Assembly: GCF_000620785.1 (NCBI RefSeq)
Contig: NZ_JIAI01000002.1
Location: 1,308,177 to 1,372,176 of the forward strand
DNA length: 64,000 nt
Direction of reading: 5' to 3'
DNA from: Actinospineispora acaciae DSM 45401
Lineage (GTDB): Bacteria > Actinomycetota > Actinomycetes > Mycobacteriales > Pseudonocardiaceae
Shown here: in pieces, positions 29,999-40,035 of the stretch
How the letters are laid out: the number at the start of each line of letters is the position of its first letter
Position numbering within the stretch: the stretch's first letter is position 1
Position numbers and translations under genes: made by a program
The notes under the pieces: model-generated
Seen by the model: only the letters and a program-made list of their open reading frames with translations
Database searches by the model: none
What the model was told of the DNA's origin: nothing

Positions 29999-31744
29999 GT
30001 GAGTGCCATCGGAACGGACCCGAACCGGCCTGTCGTGTTCCACCGCGCCAAGGTCATCACGATGGCGGACGACCCCGCCGTGCACGAGGCGGTCGTGGTG
30101 AGAAACGGCCGGATTGCGGCCGTGGGGTCGAACGAGGAGATGCTGGACCTGGCGGGCCCGGGCGCCGAGCGGGTCGACGTGGCCGGCCGGTCGATCATGC
30201 CCGGCATCGTGGACACCCACCCGCACCTGCTGAGCTGGGCCGCGTTCCGGCACGCCGTGGTGGACCTGTTCGACTGCGCGAGCCACGACGACATCGTCGA
30301 GCGCGTGCGCGAGGCGGCCGCCCGCACCCCGAAGGGGCAGTGGATCCGCTGTTCGCCGATCGGCGAACCGCACTACTTCTACCGGCGCTCCTGGCGCGAC
30401 CTGGCGGAGGGCGAGCTGCCCACCCGCGAGGTCCTGGACGCGGCGGCCCCGGAGCATCCGGTGTGGATCCAGGCCTGGGCGCCGGTCAACCCGAACACCA
30501 CGGTGTTCAACACGCGCGGGCTGTGGAACATCCAGGTCTCCCGCAACACCCCGAGCCAGGTCGGCCGGGTGCACATCGAGAAGGACGCGCACGGCGAGCC
30601 CACCGGCCGGCTGTCCGGGCCGGTCAACAACTACTACAACAACGAGCCCTGGTGGGACTCGGTGCTCGCGCGGATCGCGCACCTCGGACCGGAGGACTTC
30701 GTCGAGGGCGCGATCGAGGGGATGGCGGCGGCCAACCGCGTCGGGGTCACCAGCGTCTTCGAGGGCCACATGATGGACTTCGCGACGATCGACGTCTATC
30801 GGCAACACCGGGCCGCCGGAAACCTCACGCTGCGGGTCCTGTGCACCCCGGACGGGGAGCCGCACGGGCTGGCCGACTCGGTGACCCTCGGCGAGGATGA
30901 GCTGCGCGACCGGCTGGGCCGGCTGCACGACCTGCAGGAGCTGACCGACGACTACTTCCGGGTGGAGGGCCTGCTCGTCACCCGGGGCGGCCCGCTCGGC
31001 CCCGGCCAGCAGATCTTCTACCGCGGCTACCGGGACGCCTACGGCGGCTGGACGAACGGCCTGGAGTGGCTCCCCGAGTGGAAGGGGCAGCTCATGATCG
31101 ACTTCGCGGTGGAGCGCGGGATGCGCCTCAACGTCATCTCCGTCGCCGACCGCGAGCACGACACGACGCTGCGCCAGCTGCGCGAGGCCGAGCGCAGGTT
31201 CGGGTCGACGGCTCGTTCACTGGGAGAGCGCGAGCCGATCCTGCAGCACGCCTACATCCTCGGCGAGGAGCACGGGCGGCGCTACCGCGACCACGGCTTC
31301 CAGGTGACCACCTCGATGTCGTTCTCCTACTTCAAGCAGCACACCTACTGGGAGCGGATTGGAAAGGACGTGCTGCGCGACCTCATCCCGCTGCGCCGCG
31401 AGCTGGACCTGGGCTTCGACGTGGCGTGCGGCTCGGACTGGGGGCCGGCGAACGTGTGGGAGCACATCGCGCTGGGGGAGACCCACGAGGGCGTCTTCGG
31501 CTCCTCGAACGCCGGGCCGGCGCAGGTCATCTCCCGGCGCGAGTCGCTGGCCACCTGGACGCGCAACGGCGGCAGGGTGATGCGCTGGGACGGCATCGGC
31601 ACCCTCGAACCGGGCACCCACGCCGACCTCATCGTCGTCGACAGAGACCCGTTGACCTGCGGAAACGACGAGCTGAAGGACACATCGGTGAACCTCACCC
31701 TGGTCGGCGGGCGCGAAGTCCACAACGACGGCACCGTCGGCTGA
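29999..31744 (+). CDS. Amidohydrolase family protein (YtcJ-like)
   Basis: 581 aa metal-dependent hydrolase of the amidohydrolase_3 type. The beta-sandwich start (VFHRAKVITMADDPAVHEAVVVRNGRIAAVGS, two stretches) leads into GRSIMPGIVDTHPHLLSW with the HxH metal pair. A later His (LQHAYIL), the catalytic Asp in VACGSDWGPANV and the closing GTLEPGTHADLIVVDRDP are also seen. It would hydrolyse an amide, ester or cyclic C-N bond; the substrate is unknown. The GTG at 29999 is preceded by a -10-like sequence rather than a clear ribosome site, so the mRNA may be leaderless. Confidence 0.83.
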   Translation: MSAIGTDPNRPVVFHRAKVITMADDPAVHEAVVVRNGRIAAVGSNEEMLDLAGPGAERVDVAGRSIMPGIVDTHPHLLSWAAFRHAVVDLFDCASHDDIVERVREAAARTPKGQWIRCSPIGEPHYFYRRSWRDLAEGELPTREVLDAAAPEHPVWIQAWAPVNPNTTVFNTRGLWNIQVSRNTPSQVGRVHIEKDAHGEPTGRLSGPVNNYYNNEPWWDSVLARIAHLGPEDFVEGAIEGMAAANRVGVTSVFEGHMMDFATIDVYRQHRAAGNLTLRVLCTPDGEPHGLADSVTLGEDELRDRLGRLHDLQELTDDYFRVEGLLVTRGGPLGPGQQIFYRGYRDAYGGWTNGLEWLPEWKGQLMIDFAVERGMRLNVISVADREHDTTLRQLREAERRFGSTARSLGEREPILQHAYILGEEHGRRYRDHGFQVTTSMSFSYFKQHTYWERIGKDVLRDLIPLRRELDLGFDVACGSDWGPANVWEHIALGETHEGVFGSSNAGPAQVISRRESLATWTRNGGRVMRWDGIGTLEPGTHADLIVVDRDPLTCGNDELKDTSVNLTLVGGREVHNDGTVG

Positions 31745-31757
31745 CTATGCTGCGGCC

Positions 31758-32501
31758 GTGCCGTCACCGTCATCCGCTCGGCGCGGCGAGTACGGCTTCG
31801 ACGCGCCGTATGCCGTGTTCGGCCTGCTCATGGCGGCGCTGCCGCCGCTGGTAGCCGGAGTGATCTTCTGGCGCCAGCCGTGGGGGAAGCTGCTGCTGGC
31901 GGCGGGCGTGGCGGGCTCGATCAGCACGGCGCTGTACCTGCACGCCACCCGGCGCGGGAAGTTCGCGGTCTGGGCGCGGGAGCTGGCCGCCGTGGGGCTG
32001 GCCGGGTCGGAGCGGGTGGTCGACCTCGGCTGTGGCCGGGGCGCGGTGCTCACCATGGCCGCCGAGCTCGTGCCCGACGGCGCCGCGGTCGGGGTGGACC
32101 TGTGGCGCTCGGCCGACCAGTCGGGCAACCGGGCCGAGGTCACCCGGGCCAACGCCGCCGCCGAAGCGGTGGCCGACCGCGTCACGCTGGTCACCGCGGA
32201 CCTGCGCGAGCTGCCGTTCGCCGACGGCGAGTTCGACCTGGCCGTGTCCAGCCTGGCGGTGCACAACATCAGCGACGCCGACGGCCGCGCGAGGGCCGTG
32301 CGCGAGGCGGCCCGCGTCCTCAGGCCCGGCGGCCGGCTGGTCATCGCCGACATGGCCAGGACCTCCGAGTACGCCGCGACCCTGCGCGCCCTCGGGTTCG
32401 CCGTCACCCACCGCCGCTCGGGCTGGCGCGGCTGGTTCGGCGGACCATGGACGGCCACCGCGTTCGTCACCGCTCGCAAGCCGTCCCGGAGGGTCCGCTG
32501 A
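31758..32501 (+). CDS. SAM-dependent methyltransferase with N-terminal membrane segments
   Basis: 247 aa. Two hydrophobic stretches (about residues 18-40 and 45-62) precede a class I methyltransferase domain: VVDLGCGRGAVLTMAAE (SAM motif I), GVDLW, VTADLRELPFADGEFDLAVSS (motifs II/III) and RVLRPGGRLVIADM. It is therefore probably a membrane-attached methylase. A TATGCT element 4-9 nt upstream of the GTG suggests a leaderless message starting near it. The stop overlaps the start of the AsnC-type regulator (CTGA), so the two are coupled. Confidence 0.85.
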   Translation: MPSPSSARRGEYGFDAPYAVFGLLMAALPPLVAGVIFWRQPWGKLLLAAGVAGSISTALYLHATRRGKFAVWARELAAVGLAGSERVVDLGCGRGAVLTMAAELVPDGAAVGVDLWRSADQSGNRAEVTRANAAAEAVADRVTLVTADLRELPFADGEFDLAVSSLAVHNISDADGRARAVREAARVLRPGGRLVIADMARTSEYAATLRALGFAVTHRRSGWRGWFGGPWTATAFVTARKPSRRVR

Positions 32502-33400
32502 ACCTCGACCACGTCGACGCCAAGCTGCTCGCCGAGCTGGAGAGCGACGGGCGGGCGAGCTTCGAGGCGCTGGCTCGCCGGGTCGGGCTGTCGCGGGCGG
32601 CCACCAGGGCGCGCGTGCACAGGCTGATGGCGTCCGGGGCGATGCGGATCGCGGGGGTGATGCACCCGGAGGCCCGGGGGCTGCGCGCGTTCGGCCACGT
32701 CTCGGTCTATGTCGACGCGGCGGCGCGGCCGGTCGCCGAGACCATCGCGCGGATGGAGGCGGCCCCGCTGGTCACGGTGGTGGCCGCCCGGCACGGCGTG
32801 GTGGCCGAGCTGCGCACCTCGGACACGACCGCGCTGCAGGAGGCGGTCACGCGCATCCGGGGCCTGCCGGGGGTGCGCCACGTCGAGACCGCCGCGTACA
32901 CCTCCCGGGTCAAGGATCCGCACGTGCCGCCGGGCCGGGTGGAGCCGATCGAGCTGGACGAGGTGGACCACCGGCTGCTCGCGGCCCTGCTGGAGGACGG
33001 CCGCGCGTCGTACGCCGACCTGGTGCCGGTGGTCGGGCTGTCGCCGAGCGCGATCCGGGACCGGGTGCTGCGGCTGCTGGACTCGCGGGTGGTGCACGTC
33101 GGCGCGATGGTCGCGCCCGGCGCGGTCGGCCTCGGGCACAGCTGCGGCATCGGGGTTCGCTTCCACGGCGCGGCGGAGGAGGCGCTGGCCGGGATCGCGG
33201 CGTTGCCGTCGGTGAACTACCTGGCCACCACGCTCGGGCGGTGGGACGCGGTCGGCACGGTGGTCGCCGAGTCCCCGGCCGCGATCGGCGCCGCGCTGGA
33301 CGCGATCCGGGGTCTGCCCGGTGTCCGGCACCTGGAGGGCTGGGTCCACCTGGAGATCGTCAAGGAGGACTACACGGCTGAGCCGGCCGGGTACGGCTAG
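32498..33400 (+). CDS. Double-domain Lrp/AsnC family regulator, probable CTG start
   Basis: 300 aa with two tandem AsnC helix-turn-helix domains and ligand-binding (RAM) regions: NLDHVDAKLLAELESDGRAS and VDHRLLAALLEDGRASYADL are the two helix-turn-helix starts. The best start is CTG at 32498: GGAGGG lies 4 nt before it, it overlaps the methyltransferase TGA as CTGA, and the protein then begins (M)NLDHVDAKLL, exactly where AsnC proteins begin. An ATG at 32447 inside the methyltransferase gene is the alternative. The regulator may sense an amino acid and control the neighbouring genes. It converges on the deiminase gene, sharing the stop bases CTAG. Confidence 0.85.
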   Translation: MNLDHVDAKLLAELESDGRASFEALARRVGLSRAATRARVHRLMASGAMRIAGVMHPEARGLRAFGHVSVYVDAAARPVAETIARMEAAPLVTVVAARHGVVAELRTSDTTALQEAVTRIRGLPGVRHVETAAYTSRVKDPHVPPGRVEPIELDEVDHRLLAALLEDGRASYADLVPVVGLSPSAIRDRVLRLLDSRVVHVGAMVAPGAVGLGHSCGIGVRFHGAAEEALAGIAALPSVNYLATTLGRWDAVGTVVAESPAAIGAALDAIRGLPGVRHLEGWVHLEIVKEDYTAEPAGYG

Positions 33401-34524
33401 ACCGGTTGGTCCTGGGTGGCGCAGTGGATGCCGCCGTCGCCGGTGGCCAGGGTGTCGATGTTGAGCTGGACCACGTCGCGGCCGGGGAAGTGCTCGCGCA
33501 GCAGGCCTGCGGCGCGGTCGTCGGCCTGCTTGTCGCCGAACTCGGGGAGCAACACCGCGCCGTTGCAGACGTAGTAGTTGGCGTAGCTGGCCACGAAGGT
33601 CTCGCCGCCGCCGCGGATCTTGCCGGGGTCCGCCTCGGGCAGCTCGACGACCGTGAACGGCTTGCCGCGCGCGTCGGTGGCGTCCCGCAGCACCGATCGG
33701 GCCTGGTCGGACACCTTGGACCAGACGTCGGGCGGCGTTCCGGGCGCGGGCCGGTTGAGCAGCACCACGCCGGGGGACGGGATGCGGGTCAGGGTGTCGA
33801 CGTGGCAGTCGGTGATCTCCTCGCCCTTGACGCCCTCGAACCAGACCACGGTGCGGGCGCCGAACGTGTCGAGCAGTGCGCGCTCGATGTCCGCGCGGGT
33901 CCGGCCCGGGTTGCGGTTGTCGATGACGATCGAGCTCTCGGTGGCCAGCAGCGTGCCGAGCCCGTCGGTCTCGATGCTGCCGCCGTCGGATACCAGCGGC
34001 GCCTGCCGGCGCTCCAGCCCGAAGTGGGCTAGCAGCCCGGCGGCGGCGCGGGCGTCGTGAGCGTAGTTGATCCCGGGCTTGGCGCCCCAGCCGTTGAAGT
34101 TGAGGTCCACGCCCGCCACCGCGCCGCCACCGGCCACGAACTTCGGGAAGGAGTCACGCGCCCAGAGGTTGTCCACCGGCAGGTCGACCACCTCCACCGC
34201 GGACCCGCAGGCGCGGCCCGCGCCTGCCACGTCCTCCGGGCTCGCCACCATCACCACCGGCTCGTAGCGGGCGATCGCCTGGGAGATCCGTGCCAGGTCA
34301 CCGCGCACCGCCTCCAGCGCCGGCCCCCAGTCCGACCTGACCGAGGGCCAGGACATGAAGGTGCGGACGTGCGGGCCCGACTCGTGCGGCATCAGCATGG
34401 GTTCGGCTCCGTTCCTCGCACCGCCGGGCGGTCCAGACGGTGTGGACTGGCACCCGGCGAGGACGCCCAGCGCCGCCGCGCCGACGACACCGCCGAGGAC
34501 CGCGCGGCGGGACAGGCCCGTCAT
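33397..34524 (-). CDS. Agmatine deiminase/peptidyl-arginine deiminase family, Tat lipoprotein
   Basis: 375 aa guanidine-group hydrolase. A twin-arginine signal (SRRAVLGG) and lipobox (VLAGC) place it outside the membrane, unlike the cytoplasmic AguA. Catalytic landmarks of the PAD_porph family are present: VDNLWARDSFP, SDGGSIETDG, EEITDCHVDTLTRI (His) and the C-terminal DGGIHCATQDQP with the nucleophilic Cys. It would release ammonia from agmatine or a related guanidino compound, giving an N-carbamoyl (ureido) product. The ATG at 34524 follows GGGAGG at 5 nt. It is divergent from the permease/urease-like operon, which could use ureido products. Confidence 0.87.
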   Translation of the reverse strand: MTGLSRRAVLGGVVGAAALGVLAGCQSTPSGPPGGARNGAEPMLMPHESGPHVRTFMSWPSVRSDWGPALEAVRGDLARISQAIARYEPVVMVASPEDVAGAGRACGSAVEVVDLPVDNLWARDSFPKFVAGGGAVAGVDLNFNGWGAKPGINYAHDARAAAGLLAHFGLERRQAPLVSDGGSIETDGLGTLLATESSIVIDNRNPGRTRADIERALLDTFGARTVVWFEGVKGEEITDCHVDTLTRIPSPGVVLLNRPAPGTPPDVWSKVSDQARSVLRDATDARGKPFTVVELPEADPGKIRGGGETFVASYANYYVCNGAVLLPEFGDKQADDRAAGLLREHFPGRDVVQLNIDTLATGDGGIHCATQDQPV

Positions 34525-34824
34525 GACGACCTCCCTCGGACCTCGATCTTGGACGGGGACAACGTGACCACGGCCGATCCGGGCCGTCAACGCGGTATCG
34601 GACGACGCGATCACGCCGAAACTCGCGGGTCGACCGGCCGCCCACCGGTTCACCGGCCGCAGACGGCGGCGGTTCGGTAGCCGACCATCGAATCAGCGGC
34701 GCATGGATGAATTCGTTGGTTTCAAGTTTGTTTGTAACAATCTGACCAACGAATCATCTGTTGACGGAGATTCAGGCCACTCGTATGTTTCGCCCCGTTG
34801 CGTCGATCGCAAGGAGGCGCTCGA
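34525..34824. promoter_or_regulatory. 300-bp divergent region: promoter and nested palindrome
   Basis: Rightward promoter TTGACG (34761-34766), 17 nt, TATGTT (34784-34789), before the permease gene. Just upstream is an inverted repeat, ATTCGTTGGT (34711-34720) and ACCAACGAAT (34745-34754), enclosing a second palindrome TTGTT-TGT-AACAA (34728-34740). The position directly before -35 suits an activator. The leftward half (34525-34700) shows no distinctive element apart from the ribosome site of the deiminase gene. Confidence 0.6.
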
Positions 34825-36255
34825 ATGGCCGACGAGCCACGGCTGGAGGCCGGCACGATCGGGCTGCGGCACGCGCTGAGCCAGGGGTTCATCGCCAACG
34901 GGCCGCTGGCCTCGGTGACGGTGGCGGTGACCGGCGCGGCGGTGTTCGGCCTCGGCGCGCTGCCGTTGGCGTTCGTGCTCGGCTCGGTGCTGATCCTGTT
35001 CAGCGTCAACACGCTCTACCAGTTCTCCCGGCACGTGCTCAGCGCGGGCGGGATCTACGCGTTCACCCGGGCCGGGTTCGGCGAGCGGTCCGGGTTCGCC
35101 ACCGGGATCACCTACGGGCTGTCCAACCTGCTGCTGGTCGTCGGCAACGCCATGATCGCGCCGAGGCTGGTGGAGTTCGCCATGGCCAGTGCCGGGGTGG
35201 CGGTGCCGGCGGGCGTTCCGGTCGCGGTCGCGCTGGTCACCGTCCTGGTGCCGTACGGCATCACCTGCCTGCGGCTGCGGCCGTCGCTGGACTACGGCAT
35301 CGTCACCGCGCTGCTCGAGGTGCTCGCCGTGGTCGTGCTGTCGGTGGTGTTCGTCGTCGGGGCCGGGTCCGCGAACACGGTCGCGGTGTTCGACCCCGCC
35401 AACGCGCTGGACGGCTGGTCCGGGCTGGCCACCGGCATGGTGCTGGCCTCGGTGGCGCTGGGCGGCTCGGACAACGTGGTGGCGCTCGGCGAGGAGAGCA
35501 GGGCGCCGGCGCGCACCATCAAGCGCGGCGTGCTGGCCGTGCAGCTGTGGGTGATCGGGATCTACCTGCTCGCGTCGTATGCGCTGACCATCGGCTGGGG
35601 GCCGTCGAAGATGGCCTCGTTCGCGGAGTCCGGCAGCCCGCTGCTGGTGCTGGTGGAGCGGGCGGCCGGGCCGTGGCCGGTGGCCCTGATCATGCTCTTG
35701 GCGCTGAACAGCATCGTCGGCGTGAACGTAGCAGTGAACATCAGCACCGCGCGGCTGATCTTCGACACGGCCCGGCGGGGGCTCACGCCCGAGCGCCTGG
35801 CCGCCGTGCACGCCCGGCACCGCACGCCGGTCGCGGCGCTGACGGTGGCCGTCCTCGTGCAGCTGGCCGTGCTGCTCGTAGCGACCGCCGCCTGGGGGCT
35901 GACCACCGGGTTCGTCGTGGTGGTCGCCGCGGGGGGCGCCGGGTTCGTGCTCGTCCAACTGGTCAACACCGCGGCGCTGATCTCGTTCGCCCGCCGGCAC
36001 GACCTGTTCGGAATCTGGTACCGGGGCGTGCCGGCCGCCGGCTGCGTGCTCACCGTCTACCTGCTCTACACCAGCGTGGTGCCGCTGGAGCTGCCGAGGA
36101 GCATCGGTGTGATCGCCATGCTCGCCGTGTTCGCCGGCTGCGCAGGGTGGGCCTCCTTGGTTGCACGTTCAAATCCGACGACCGAAAGGGACGGTGTGCA
36201 TGGACGACCACGCCAAGCGTCACGCCTGGGACTGGATAGAGAACCACCGGCCTGA
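34825..36255 (+). CDS. APC superfamily permease of the urease-like operon
   Basis: 476 aa, about twelve membrane helices. After a short tail comes GLRHALSQGFIANGPLASVTV, then AGGIYAFTRAGFGERSGF and SVALGGSDNVVALGEESRAP, which matches the APC motif after helix 6. The ATG at 34825 follows AAGGAGG at 7 nt, a very strong site. It is the first gene of an operon with an M20-type hydrolase and urease-like subunits, so it probably imports their nitrogenous substrate. The gene overlaps the next by 56 bp, an unusually long overlap. Confidence 0.88.
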   Translation: MADEPRLEAGTIGLRHALSQGFIANGPLASVTVAVTGAAVFGLGALPLAFVLGSVLILFSVNTLYQFSRHVLSAGGIYAFTRAGFGERSGFATGITYGLSNLLLVVGNAMIAPRLVEFAMASAGVAVPAGVPVAVALVTVLVPYGITCLRLRPSLDYGIVTALLEVLAVVVLSVVFVVGAGSANTVAVFDPANALDGWSGLATGMVLASVALGGSDNVVALGEESRAPARTIKRGVLAVQLWVIGIYLLASYALTIGWGPSKMASFAESGSPLLVLVERAAGPWPVALIMLLALNSIVGVNVAVNISTARLIFDTARRGLTPERLAAVHARHRTPVAALTVAVLVQLAVLLVATAAWGLTTGFVVVVAAGGAGFVLVQLVNTAALISFARRHDLFGIWYRGVPAAGCVLTVYLLYTSVVPLELPRSIGVIAMLAVFAGCAGWASLVARSNPTTERDGVHGRPRQASRLGLDREPPA

Positions 36256-37756
36256 CCTGTCGGGCTGGCACACCACCATCTGGGAGTTCGCCGAGCCGGC
36301 ATGGCGCGAGTACCGCTCCGCCGCCTGGTACGTCGACCGGCTGCGCGGCGCCGGGTTCGACGTGGAGGTCGGCAGCGGCGGCATGCCCACGGCGTTCGCG
36401 GCGAGCTGGAGCAACGGGCCGGGGCCGACCGTGCTGACCTACGCCGAGTACGACGCCGTGCCCGGCAACTGCCAGGCCGCCGCGACCAGCCCCGGCCCGC
36501 GCCCCGGGCTGAGCCGGTTCGCGCCCGGGCACACCGACCCGCACTCCGCGCTGGGCATCAGCACCCTCGGCGGGCTGCTCGCCGCCCAGCACGCCATGCG
36601 CGAGCACGGCATCGGCGGCACGCTGCGCTACACCGGCGAGCCGGCGGAGAAGGTGCAGGGCTCGAAGGTGGTGCACGGCCTGCGCGGCTACTACGACGTG
36701 GACGCGATCGTCAGCTACCACCCGTACTACTCGCTGCCGATGTGCAACACCGCCCGCTGGGACACCCACTGCGGCGCGTACTACAGCAAGATCTTTACCT
36801 TCCGCAGCGACCACCCGGAGACCTGGGCCGACGCCGGCACCCCGATCCCGTCGGTGCACTCCTCGGCGCGGGCGCCGGGCGCTAACGCCGCGCTGTTCGC
36901 GATGTACTCGCTGACCAAGTCCACGCAGGACGCGATGGCGCCGACCGTCGGCGGCTGGTCGCTGAGCGAGGCGATCCTCACCGCCGGCAACGCCACCGCC
37001 GACCACCTGCCCGCCGGCCTGGCCCAGATCCAGTACTCCTGGCGGGCGCCCACGCTGGACATCGCGGAGCGGATCCTGGCGGTGCTGGACGCGAACGCCG
37101 AGGCCGCCGCCCGCACCGCGCACTGCGACCTGCACGCCCGGTGGGTGGCGCGCAACCGCCCCGGCCTGGCCAACCACGCCATGGCCGCGCTCACCTACCG
37201 CAACCTGGCCGCCGTCGGCCCGCCCGGCTACGACGAAGCGGCCGTGGCGGTGGGCAGGGACATGCAGCGCGCGCTCGGCGTCCCGGTCACGGATAAGCCG
37301 TTCCTGCCCGACGCCGAGCGGCTGGTCGAACCGCGCGAGGCGGAGCGCCGGCTGCGCGAGCTGCTGCCGCCCTGGCAGGCCAACTCCACCTCCGACGACT
37401 ACGTGGAGATGACCTGGTACGCGCCGACCGCCCGGTTCTACGTGGCCGGCCCCGAGCTGGCCCCGACCGGTACGTCGTGCCCGGCCTGGGTCTACAACGC
37501 GCTGGGCGGCATCCCGGCCACCATCGACCCGAGCATCGTGTGCGCGGCCAAGACCACCGCCGGCGCCCTGCTCGACCTGCTGCGCGACCGGCCGGCGCTG
37601 CACGCGGCCCAGGAGGAGTTCGAGCGCCGCCGCGCGGGCGGCCCGAAGCCGCTGCTGCCGCCCGAGTTCACCGCGCCGGTGGACTACCCGTGGCCGGAGT
37701 ACGTGACCACCGAGCGCGGCCGCGACTGGTCGGTGCCGCTGAACGCGGAGGTCTGA
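36200..37756 (+). CDS. M20D (AbgB-like) amidohydrolase homologue with altered metal site
   Basis: 518 aa. The overall pattern is that of AbgB-type M20 hydrolases: GPTVLTYAEYDAVPG, GTLRYTGEPAEKVQGSK, DAIVSYHPYYSLP, and late STSDDYVEMTWYAPT with IVCAAKTTAGALLDLL. However, the usual HACGHN zinc motif is replaced by APGHTDPHSA, the PAEE pair by PAEK, and the HSW of the C-terminal part by PAW. It may bind metal differently or act on an atypical amide. The ATG at 36200 has GAAAGGGA at 8 nt. The gene overlaps the urease gamma-beta gene start (TGATG). Substrate unknown; AbgB itself cleaves aminobenzoyl-glutamate. Confidence 0.8.
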   Translation: MDDHAKRHAWDWIENHRPDLSGWHTTIWEFAEPAWREYRSAAWYVDRLRGAGFDVEVGSGGMPTAFAASWSNGPGPTVLTYAEYDAVPGNCQAAATSPGPRPGLSRFAPGHTDPHSALGISTLGGLLAAQHAMREHGIGGTLRYTGEPAEKVQGSKVVHGLRGYYDVDAIVSYHPYYSLPMCNTARWDTHCGAYYSKIFTFRSDHPETWADAGTPIPSVHSSARAPGANAALFAMYSLTKSTQDAMAPTVGGWSLSEAILTAGNATADHLPAGLAQIQYSWRAPTLDIAERILAVLDANAEAAARTAHCDLHARWVARNRPGLANHAMAALTYRNLAAVGPPGYDEAAVAVGRDMQRALGVPVTDKPFLPDAERLVEPREAERRLRELLPPWQANSTSDDYVEMTWYAPTARFYVAGPELAPTGTSCPAWVYNALGGIPATIDPSIVCAAKTTAGALLDLLRDRPALHAAQEEFERRRAGGPKPLLPPEFTAPVDYPWPEYVTTERGRDWSVPLNAEV

Positions 37757-38316
37757 TGTACCTGAGCCCGACCGACCAGGCCCGCCTCGACGTGTTCACC
37801 GTCGCCTCGCTGGCCCGCGAGCTGCTGCGGCGCGGGCTGCGGCTCAACGCCCCGGAGGCCACCGCGCTGGTCTGCGACGAGATGCACCTGGCCGCCCGCG
37901 CCGGCGCCGGCTACGACGAGACGCTGGTGGCCGGCCGCCGGGCGGTGCGCCGCGAGCAACTGCTCGACGGGGTGCCCGACCTGGTCGACGAGATACGCCT
38001 GGAAGTGCTGTTCGAGGAGGGCAGCCGGCTGCTGGTGCTGCACCGGCCGTGGTCGGGGCCTGGTGGCAGCCGTGTGGAGGGCGCCCCCGTCACGCTGAAC
38101 GGCGAGCGTCCCCGGCGGCGGCTGGCCGTCACGAACACCTCGACACGCGTGGTCAGGGTGTCCTCGCACTACCCGTTCTGGCGGACCAACCGCCGGCTGG
38201 AGTTCGACAGGGCGGCCGCGCACGGCTTCCGGCTGGACGTGCCGGCCGGGGTGTCGGTGCGCTGGACGCCCGGCCAGACCCGCGAGGTCGACCTGGTCGC
38301 GTTGGGGACGAAGTAG
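37756..38316 (+). CDS. Urease gamma-beta fusion protein (orphan urease-like system)
   Basis: 186 aa. Residues 1 to about 100 match urease gamma (MYLSPTDQARLDVFTVASLA, LNAPEATALVCDEM, LLDGVPDLVDEIRLEVLFEEG in part). The remainder matches the beta subunit (NGERPRRRLAVTNTSTRVVRV, SSHYPFWRTNRRLEFDR, GFRLDVPAG). Such fusions occur in some actinomycetes and Helicobacter. The beta motif GSHFHFFE is here SSHYPFWR, so the subunit is divergent. The ATG overlaps the M20 gene stop and the gene runs straight into the alpha-like gene. It should form the scaffold of a urease-like complex. Confidence 0.88.
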   Translation: MYLSPTDQARLDVFTVASLARELLRRGLRLNAPEATALVCDEMHLAARAGAGYDETLVAGRRAVRREQLLDGVPDLVDEIRLEVLFEEGSRLLVLHRPWSGPGGSRVEGAPVTLNGERPRRRLAVTNTSTRVVRVSSHYPFWRTNRRLEFDRAAAHGFRLDVPAGVSVRWTPGQTREVDLVALGTK

Positions 38317-40035
38317 ATGGCCGTCGAGCTGCCGCGCGACGAGTACGGGCTGCGCTACGGGCCGACCACCGGCGACCTGGTGCGCCTCGGCGACACGAAC
38401 CTGTGGGTGCGGGTGGAGGACGACCACGTCGGCTACGGCGACGAGCCGATCTGGGGGTACGCCAAGAACCTGCGCTCCCGGATGGCCCAGCACGACAACG
38501 CCACCTCGGCCAGCGAGCTGGACGTGCTGGTCGCCGGGGTGCTGTTGATCGACCCGCTGCTCGGCGTGGTCAAGACGAACATCGGCGTCAAGGACGGCCG
38601 GGTGGTCGGGATCGGGCGGGCCGGCAACCCCGACGTGCTGTCCGGCGTCGAGCTGGTCGTCGGCCCGAACACCATGCCGATCATGGGCTACGGCCTGGTC
38701 GCCACCGCCGGCGGCGTGGACAGCCACGTGCACCTGATGTCGCCCCGGCTGCTCCCGGTGGCGCTCGGCGCGGGGGTGACCACCCTGGTCACGGCCGGGT
38801 TCGAGGAGCCGCCGGCGGCGATGTCCGCGACCCTGCGCGCGTTCGAGCACCTCCCGGTCAACATCGGCCTGCAGGCCAGCTCGCGCTCCGAGGTGGCCGG
38901 CGCCACCGAGCGGGTCGTCGAGGCCGGCGCGATCGGGCTGAAGATCCACGAGGACTGGGGCGCCTACCCCGAGATCATCGACGCCACCCTGCGGCTGGCC
39001 GACCAGCACGACGTGGCCGTCGCCCTGCACACCGACGGCCTGCACGAGTCCGCCGAGCTGGAGGACACCGTCGAGGCAATCGCCGGCCGGGCCGTGCACG
39101 CCTACCACGTCGAAGGCGCCGGCGGGCACGTGCCGGACCTGATCGCGCTGGTCCGGGAGCCGAACATCATCTGCTCGTCCACCACCCCGACCATCCCGTA
39201 CGGCAGCCTCGCCCCGGTCGAGGGCACCCCGATGGTGCTGCGGGTGCACGGCGGCTGCGCGGACGCGCCCGAGGACCTGGAGCTGGCCGCCGAACGGATC
39301 CACCCCGCGACGATGGCCGCCGAGGGCCCGCTGCACGACCTCGGCGCGATCAGCATCATCAACAGCGACTCCCAGGGCATGGGCCGCATCGGCGAGACGA
39401 TCCGCCGCACCTGGCAGCTCGCGCACCTGATGAAGGCCTGGCGGGCCACCGAGGCCGGGCGCGGCTGGCCGACCCCGCCGCGCTGCCCGCGCCCGTACGC
39501 CCCGGCCGGGGCCGACGACAACGACCGGGTGCTGCGGTACCTGGCCAAGTACACCGTCGAGGCCGCGCACACCCACGGCATCGGGCACGAGGTGGGCAGC
39601 CTCGCGCCCGGCCGGCTGGCCGACGTGGTGCTCTGGCGGCCCAGCCACTTCGGGGTACGCCCCGAGCTGGTGCTCAAGGCCGGCTACCCGGCGTGGGGCG
39701 CGATCGGCGAAGGCAACGCCTCGGTCACCGCCGTCGAACCCCGCCGCTACGGCCCGCACTGGGGCGGCCACGGCCTGGCACCCGCCGCGCTGTCGGTCAC
39801 GTTCGTGTCCCAGGCCGCCATGGCCGCCGGCATCCAACGCCGCCTCGGCAGCCGCCGCCGCTTCGTGACCGTCCGCGACACCCGCACCGTGCGCCGCGAC
39901 CACCTCACCGCCAACCCGGCCACCGCCCCCATCGCCGTGGACCCCCTCGACGGCACCGTCACCCTCCACGACCGCCTGTTGGCCGCCCCGCCCACCACCC
40001 ACGTCCCGCTCAACCGCAACTACCTGCTGGGCTGA
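38317..40035 (+). CDS. Urease alpha-subunit-like protein lacking the catalytic Cys-His flap
   Basis: 572 aa, normal UreC length. Predicted nickel-site residues are all present: the HxH pair in GGVDSHVHLM, the carbamylatable Lys and next His in AIGLKIHEDWG, His in VALHTDGLHE, His in HAYHVEGAGG, and Asp in IINSDSQGMGR. The mobile flap differs: where true ureases have MVCHHLD, this protein reads MVLRVHGGC with two extra residues, so the flap Cys and the general-acid His are lost. The adjacent RIRRETIAAE is RIHPATMAAEG. It therefore probably hydrolyses another ureido or guanidino compound, or is inactive. No ureD, E, F or G gene is in the window. The start directly follows the gamma-beta stop. 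Confidence 0.88.
   Translation: MAVELPRDEYGLRYGPTTGDLVRLGDTNLWVRVEDDHVGYGDEPIWGYAKNLRSRMAQHDNATSASELDVLVAGVLLIDPLLGVVKTNIGVKDGRVVGIGRAGNPDVLSGVELVVGPNTMPIMGYGLVATAGGVDSHVHLMSPRLLPVALGAGVTTLVTAGFEEPPAAMSATLRAFEHLPVNIGLQASSRSEVAGATERVVEAGAIGLKIHEDWGAYPEIIDATLRLADQHDVAVALHTDGLHESAELEDTVEAIAGRAVHAYHVEGAGGHVPDLIALVREPNIICSSTTPTIPYGSLAPVEGTPMVLRVHGGCADAPEDLELAAERIHPATMAAEGPLHDLGAISIINSDSQGMGRIGETIRRTWQLAHLMKAWRATEAGRGWPTPPRCPRPYAPAGADDNDRVLRYLAKYTVEAAHTHGIGHEVGSLAPGRLADVVLWRPSHFGVRPELVLKAGYPAWGAIGEGNASVTAVEPRRYGPHWGGHGLAPAALSVTFVSQAAMAAGIQRRLGSRRRFVTVRDTRTVRRDHLTANPATAPIAVDPLDGTVTLHDRLLAAPPTTHVPLNRNYLLG

Follow-up and report, generated by a model that had tools for sequence, protein, structure and literature searches.

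What does a urease homologue hydrolyse when it keeps the catalytic residues of urease, an enzyme regarded as taking essentially only urea, while its flap and substrate-side loop are changed? The question is raised by the 64,000-nucleotide stretch of Actinospineispora acaciae DSM 45401 analysed here (hereafter the window), in which four plus-strand genes at 34825-40035 overlap or abut and encode an APC permease, an M20-like hydrolase, a urease gamma-beta fusion and a urease alpha homologue. Conserved gene neighbourhoods in other genomes strongly support the prediction of a metal hydrolase that acts on a larger ureido compound supplied by an agmatine-deiminase homologue, and we moderately favour N-carbamoylputrescine or a close ureido-amine as its putative substrate. 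Substrate, transport direction and metal are inferences. The genes that carry the argument are as follows.

33397-34524, minus strand: agmatine-deiminase-like gene, upstream of the operon and divergent from it (PF04371)
34825-36255, plus strand: APC-family permease, 476 aa, possible substrate importer (PF00324, PF13520; family call AA_permease)
36200-37756, plus strand: divergent M20-like amidohydrolase, 518 aa (TIGR01891, below cut-off)
37756-38316, plus strand: urease gamma-beta fusion subunit, 186 aa (PF00547 and PF00699, Urease_gamma and Urease_beta)
38317-40035, plus strand: urease-alpha-like catalytic subunit, 572 aa, predicted ureido-compound hydrolase (Urease_alpha and Amidohydro_1)

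Active site of the alpha subunit

Alignment with canonical ureases places the alpha residues H137, H139, K209, H238, H264 and D351 on the complete urease ligand set His134, His136, Lys217, His246, His272 and Asp360, with carbamylation of the lysine predicted from sequence. Three elements of the gene matter for what follows, flap residues Cys319, His320 and His321 being numbered as in K. aerogenes.

38785-38826, plus strand: shortened substrate-side loop LVTAGFEEPPAAMS, residues 157-170, replacing the GGGTGPA loop (alignment)
38941-38943, plus strand: codon of the carbamylated lysine K209, equivalent to K217 of K. aerogenes (alignment)
39220-39276, plus strand: flap, residues 302-320, in which Cys319 is replaced by Val310, the general-acid His320 corresponds to H311 and His321 is replaced by Gly312 (alignment)

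The canonical flap triad Cys-His-His reads Val-His-Gly in the window's alpha (M-VLR-VHGG, compared with M-LMV-CHHL), and the spacing of E302, M306, H311 and D320 is identical to that of the aligned canonical ureases. An earlier interpretation made from the letters alone (the sequence-only reading) was right that all metal ligands, the carbamylated lysine included, are kept and that the flap cysteine is lost. The two-residue flap insertion and the loss of the general-acid histidine, which it also described, do not exist: the wrong ‘MV’ had been lined up. Variant triads are found in 6 of the 102 rows that group with canonical ureases (SHH in three, AHN in two, CHN in one). The shortened loop is a real difference that the earlier interpretation overlooked; where ureases have the GGGTGPA loop, which lines their urea pocket, the window's alpha has TAGFEEPP, making this loop 11 residues shorter than that of jack bean urease.

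Among family models, the protein passes the subfamily model NF009686 (632.9 bits) and stays below the urease equivalog cut-offs of TIGR01792 (543 versus 680 bits) and NF009685 (547 versus 907), as well as those of NF009834 and NF010591. An AlphaFold model of the alpha subunit (pLDDT 85, pTM 0.91) aligns with urease alpha chains along almost its full length, with a VIA Z score of up to 52.1 (1fwh_C; 553 residues aligned, rmsd 2.1).

The non-canonical clade and its gene neighbourhoods

Alpha sequences were gathered by a collection scan (best 80 loci), from samples of 298, 394 and 396 genomes of the order, class and phylum, respectively, and from the 17-member family of one strong match. The resulting 172-row tree leaves out rows of 330 aa or fewer, contains two duplicate genes (L128/L201 and L148/L168) and includes 24 genes missed by the gene caller, whose translations were entered with X in place of stops. 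Seventy rows (68 distinct genes), all with a flap triad other than CHH, SHH, CHN or AHN, form one clade with a support of 1.0, and a reduced IQ-TREE analysis of 76 sequences, 27 of them non-canonical, gave the same split with an ultrafast bootstrap value (UFBoot) of 99. The window's alpha lies in this clade, apart from true ureases; since the clade is spread over several families of the phylum, the term ‘orphan’ used earlier does not fit. Support (UFBoot) is 98 for the window's subclade W, 98 for W with its sister L172, 100 for T2, 97 for T3, the largest sampled non-canonical subclade, and 100 for three plasmid sequences, which form the sister of T3 in the reduced tree.

Across the clade the six ligand positions, His219, His320 and Arg336 are kept, except for one partial row without D360 and one leucine at 336. 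The flap and the loop are changed throughout, the loop being shortened in W and altered in T2 and T3. At flap position 321, W and T3 rows have Gly or an acidic residue (Gly or Glu in W) and 11 of 12 T2 rows have Arg or Lys, a charge contrast that is consistent with differing substrate charges. W-type alphas are rare in the order and class samples (1 of 298 and 1 of 394 genomes, the window's own in both) and number 12 of 396 in the phylum sample, counting the window's genome and the L172 sister. Most belong to one small-genome family, 10 of whose 17 members carry one, and the gene likely came to the window's genome by transfer.

The neighbourhoods of these genes suggest a link of part of the clade with agmatine metabolism. 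Genes were called from codon usage, and neighbours up to 10 kb away were counted wherever a locus had 4 kb of flank or more (12 of the 13 distinct W loci). At 33 of 39 T3 loci, from two family codes, an agmatine-deiminase-family gene is the next gene 3' of alpha, on the same strand and after a gap of 9-208 nt; a PotD-like gene was found at 3 of the 39 and neither gene at another 3. Among the 12 W loci, a deiminase gene is present at three (the window; L167, just upstream and in the same direction; L175, divergent), a PotABCD-like polyamine-type transporter at another three, and neither at six; the transporter of L168 was named by a hidden Markov model and the remaining two by clustering. Canonical control loci from mixed phyla yielded no deiminase gene and no potD at 68 loci, compared with ureG at 63. 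Co-localisation of alpha and deiminase extends over five family codes and several arrangements, and at two further T3 loci (G614 and G573) the deiminase gene lies about 2 kb away. That of G614 passes the agmatine-deiminase equivalog TIGR03380 (543 versus 381.8 bits), whereas three others scanned beside W and T3 alphas remain below it at 284-313 bits; the best PDB match of one T3 deiminase is an agmatine deiminase. One transporter ATPase scores over the polyamine-type model TIGR01187; for the two scanned binding proteins, the PotD/PotF matches stay below cut-off. One nitrilase query and one amidase query found no match near any of the 39 T3 alphas.

A deiminase partner for every non-canonical alpha was considered and rejected, as none occurs at the 12 T2 loci, where a CdaR-like regulator, an Amidohydro_3 protein and an MFS transporter are each present at 10. 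Amidohydro_3 genes also lie near other non-canonical alphas (4 of 12 W, 5 of 39 T3 and 3 of 4 ‘deep’ loci) and near none of the 68 canonical ones. No ureG, ureF or ureD match was obtained within 10 kb of 67 non-canonical loci (UreE was not searched). The ureF-like and ureD queries, taken from the window's own genome, are insensitive, matching only 10 and 6 of the 68 canonical loci, so that ureG is the informative control.

Several single loci deserve mention. Around one T3 locus, L198 (G430:C19:611000-630500), four PF04371 genes lie in about 17 kb. The plasmid alphas of the T3 sister branch (L252, 5282-7647, L253 and L254; NZ_CP109047.1, NZ_CP108786.1 and NZ_CP109401.1) have a Val-His-Arg flap and adjoin adenylation, condensation and phosphotransferase genes of the nonribosomal peptide type, with a 2OG-Fe(II) oxygenase gene in one plasmid, which suggests a urease-like tailoring enzyme. 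Two W-type metagenome-assembled genomes (MAGs; L008, 8373-13224, and L009) carry an AS-family amidase gene 3' of alpha and a divergent phosphotriesterase-like gene before it. At the W sister locus L172 (5619-8588), a big aminotransferase fusion (NF004800, over cut-off) is divergent and just upstream of gamma-beta. At G246:C7:86692-88395, a urease alpha match that scores within the range of canonical ones contains one in-frame TAA.

Two further loci with deiminase homologues were noted. At L249 (8423-12030), a deiminase 56% identical to a T3-linked one is encoded between nitrilase-like and permease-like genes (by eye), with no urease-like gene, as though partners were swapped. The agmatine-deiminase homologue of L250 (8977-10125), 54% identical to the window's, has a lipoprotein-like N-terminus; the next genes resemble a peptide-type ABC transporter (by eye), and a second deiminase gene follows further on.

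The window's locus and its genome

At the window's locus, the deiminase-like gene is the one PF04371 gene found in the genome. Its product scores 214.2 bits against TIGR03380, short of the cut-off of 381.8, and in the PDB it matches an agmatine deiminase best (E 2.9e-51). The N-terminus bears an RR motif and an LAGC lipobox, by eye presumably a twin-arginine lipoprotein signal, and the protein is probably an exported lipoprotein. Domain evidence is good for the urease subunits and weak for the M20 label: the M20-like protein reaches 68.6 bits against TIGR01891 (cut-off 153.75), has no Pfam match at E 0.001 and matches the PDB weakly (best E 7.4e-4). The gamma-beta fusion, whose start codon overlaps the stop of the M20-like gene, covers positions 1-195 of the 231-position fusion profile. 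The tightly overlapped four-gene operon and the divergent exported agmatine-deiminase homologue of the sequence-only reading agree with these coordinates and matches, the M20 call being the weak element. No homologues of the permease and M20-like genes were found at other W loci, which makes the window's operon its own version. Three further features lie upstream of the operon.

29999-31744, plus strand: Amidohydro_3 protein, further upstream (PF07969)
32447-33400, plus strand: AsnC/Lrp-type regulator adjoining the deiminase-like gene, possible regulator (PF13404, PF01037)
34525-34824, no strand: 300-nt intergenic stretch between the deiminase-like gene and the operon, candidate two-way promoter (position only)

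Homologues of the M20-like protein were found in 8 of the 298 genomes of the order sample, and contexts were viewed for four of the seven from other genomes. The nearest one found (43%; L243, 2833-17442) adjoins a PotA-type ABC transporter gene that scores over TIGR01187; a GABA transaminase gene over cut-off and an aldehyde dehydrogenase gene (by eye) lie nearby, and the stretch lacks a urease-like gene. Around three weaker homologues (L244-L246, about 27-29% identical), neither a polyamine transporter nor a urease-like gene was seen.

The window's genome assembly (9.9 Mb in 93 contigs, 98% complete, 7% contaminated) has three urease-alpha genes: the window's, one on contig C9 and one on contig C3. 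The C9 alpha is canonical, with a CHH flap, and is followed by genes assigned to UreF and UreG from their position and by eye, together with a UreD gene over cut-off. UreD, UreF-like and UreG-like queries from the same genome gave no match within 10 kb of the window's alpha (UreE was not among them). The statement that ureDEFG genes are absent thus holds near the operon, as far as these queries go, and fails for the genome as a whole, where a search for a canonical cluster with accessory genes leads to C9. Next after that cluster (L007, 6304-11320) comes an arginase-family gene (PF00491) that scores below the agmatinase cut-offs; this family releases free urea, in contrast to the deiminase beside the non-canonical enzyme. 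The C3 alpha (L006, 4612-11159) is a second non-canonical one, of type T2, in a row of CdaR-like regulator, gamma-beta, alpha, Amidohydro_3 and MFS genes.

Proposed reaction and its alternatives

We propose that the gamma-beta and alpha subunits would form a urease-fold binuclear metallohydrolase for a mono-substituted urea, most likely N-carbamoylputrescine. The exported agmatine-deiminase-like protein would convert agmatine to N-carbamoylputrescine and ammonia, the APC permease would take N-carbamoylputrescine into the cell, and the urease-like enzyme would hydrolyse it to putrescine, CO2 and ammonia. The chemistry would be that of urease, with the carbamylated lysine bridging two metals and the kept histidine acting as general acid. 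With the catalytic set retained, urea-type hydrolysis is plausible; the shortened (W) or altered (T2 and T3) loop and the changed flap could give room for the substituent; and the presence of an exported-looking deiminase and a permease in the window suggests uptake of externally made carbamoylputrescine. The T3 enzyme, and probably that of W, would carry out the same reaction on the same substrate, in the place of AguB (nitrilase family) or AguY (amidase family). Assembly may proceed without UreDEFG in at least some genomes, and in the window's genome possibly with the help of the canonical cluster's chaperones. The clade as a whole probably does not act mainly on urea. The sequence-only reading had likewise proposed a hydrolase for a larger ureido compound; its argument from a flap insertion and a lost histidine fell with the alignment, while conserved neighbourhoods elsewhere lend the proposal strong support, so that its direction is right, on better grounds than those first given.

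Genome-level counts point the same way. PF04371 matches occur in 37 of the 38 T3 genomes, against 68 of the remaining 356 in the class sample (Fisher's test, p 7e-23 without phylogenetic correction); the class and phylum samples were searched with an E-value cut of 1e-138 that missed at least two T3 genomes (G614 and G573), which are counted among the 356. AguB was not found over its curated cut-off in any of 49 genomes (38 T3, 9 W, the L172 sister and the window's), versus 2 of 14 controls over cut-off; AguY was not searched genome-wide. Of the 60 genomes carrying non-canonical alphas, 22 gave no UreD match, though a UreD gene can go unseen in an incomplete genome. Apart from the window's own, every W-type genome sampled is among these 22: 10 from W and the L172 sister, 11 in total.

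A number of observations weigh against N-carbamoylputrescine as the substrate or against assembly without chaperones. The deiminase link in W amounts to only 3 of 12 loci (the genome-wide PF04371 search in W covered the window's genome), and in the window the APC and M20-like genes separate alpha from the deiminase gene, which lies 3.8 kb away in divergent orientation. Both the window's deiminase (214 bits) and the three scanned elsewhere fall below the equivalog cut-off and may therefore act on another substrate. In one T3 genome, G532, PF04371 gave no match, and 26 of the 38 T3 genomes come from one family, so the counts are not independent. Nitrilases below cut-off (E 1e-60 or better; best 265 versus 410 bits) are encoded in 31 of the 49 genomes and could be N-carbamoylputrescine amidases. 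Most T3 genomes are among the 38 of 60 with a UreD match, where chaperone sharing is possible, and most of these UreD-bearing T3 genomes also carry a canonical system, so chaperone independence is not supported for them. The K. aerogenes variant C319A is reported to retain urease activity, which means that loss of the flap cysteine alone does not abolish it. Acidic residues of the shortened loop were considered as amine binders; they are present in all 14 W and 40 T3 rows but also, at other positions, in 48 of 102 canonical rows, and this remains a lead only.

The weakness of the deiminase match leaves some room for another deiminase-linked ureido or guanidino substrate, such as citrulline or a peptidyl- or acyl-citrulline yielding ornithine, with the M20-like hydrolase of the operon trimming the acyl group, or agmatine itself. 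The PF04371 name refers to the Porphyromonas-type peptidyl-arginine deiminase, and the window's protein looks exported and scores below the agmatine-deiminase cut-off. We nevertheless regard such a substrate as unlikely: the window's deiminase and one from T3 match agmatine deiminases best in the PDB, polyamine-type ABC transporters occur among the W and T3 loci, and the nearest M20 homologue found adjoins a PotA-type transporter gene with a GABA transaminase gene near. A ureido or carbamoyl substrate unrelated to agmatine, for instance a hydantoin- or purine-derived carbamoyl acid, may hold for T2, whose neighbours include no deiminase and whose flap position 321 is mostly basic. For the window's enzyme it is distinctly unlikely, as position 321 is never basic in W and a deiminase-like gene is present at the locus itself, even though half of the W loci have neither deiminase nor polyamine-type transporter within 10 kb and two W MAGs have the AS-family amidase gene 3' of alpha.

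The retained ligands, carbamylated lysine, His219, His320 and Arg336, together with a urease alpha fold at Z 52, would also suit an ordinary urease paralogue acting on urea and matured by the chaperones of the canonical cluster, whose UreD has counterparts in 38 of the 60 genomes; a 2017 study takes ure(AB)C clusters to be functional urease clusters (PMC5489568). Against this decidedly improbable alternative stand the 22 genomes without a UreD match, the clade-wide alteration of flap and loop with scores below the urease-alpha equivalog cut-offs, and a linked deiminase family that produces no urea. The same retained residues, conserved clade-wide apart from the two exceptions given above, make a catalytically dead pseudo-enzyme with another role hard to credit, although the flap cysteine and second histidine are gone and the gamma-beta fusion covers only 195 of 231 profile positions; the reading frame is intact and the gene pair conserved. 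Compared with these possibilities, hydrolysis of N-carbamoylputrescine or a close ureido-amine is the predicted activity that we favour. More tentatively, and with rather less confidence, the whole clade, seen in Actinomycetota, may consist of substituted-urea hydrolases that can mature without urease chaperones, with an N-carbamoylputrescine branch, a T2 branch acting on an anionic ureido substrate and a third serving as tailoring enzymes of nonribosomal peptide synthetase clusters.

Among known systems, nickel urease UreABC (EC 3.5.1.5) shares with the window's enzyme the fold, the subunit make-up, the ligands, the carbamylated lysine, the general-acid histidine and Arg336. It differs in that the window's enzyme has Val for the flap cysteine, Gly for His321, a shorter loop, no nearby chaperone genes and other neighbours. 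The Helicobacter mustelae iron urease UreA2B2 is reported to be independent of urease accessory proteins. It shares the urease fold (PDB 3qga) and uses a metal other than nickel (PMC3816311), but it is named a urease and is 40% identical to the window's alpha, like canonical chains. Streptomyces clusters of ure(AB)C genes alone, described for S. coelicolor and S. avermitilis in 2008 (PMC2492869), share the gamma-beta fusion and alpha without accessory genes and are there named for urease or urea utilisation. SCO5525-5526 appears among urea-utilising genes in a 2012 paper (PMC3293853), at odds with a 2016 paper giving SCO5526-5524 as nrdABS (PMC4991794); the S. coelicolor SCO5525-5526 pair is a likely T3 candidate, with doubtful locus tags.

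Carbamoyl removal from N-carbamoylputrescine is known for AguB and, since 2025, for the amidase AguY, which was identified through adjacency to aguA (PMC12283126). Both would share with the urease-like enzyme the predicted reaction and the adjacency to aguA, and the inference drawn here is the same as for AguY; in contrast, the nitrilase AguB and the amidase AguY belong to protein families unrelated to it. The word urease is absent from the main text of the AguY paper. In open-licence PubMed Central text, which holds no preprints and few subscription papers, no published link of ure(AB)C-type genes to agmatine was found, a weak negative.

If the proposal is true, the urease fold would gain a new substrate class and agmatine a new route to putrescine, and the N-carbamoylputrescine branch would add a further, unrelated kind of N-carbamoylputrescine hydrolase. 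Genomes that carry an alpha of this clade without a UreD match raise the question of how the metal centre is assembled. The urease label of many bacterial genes may be wrong: numerous ure(AB)C genes would then carry a false annotation, the presence of ureC would be no proof of ureolysis, and the finding would be relevant to soil nitrogen models.

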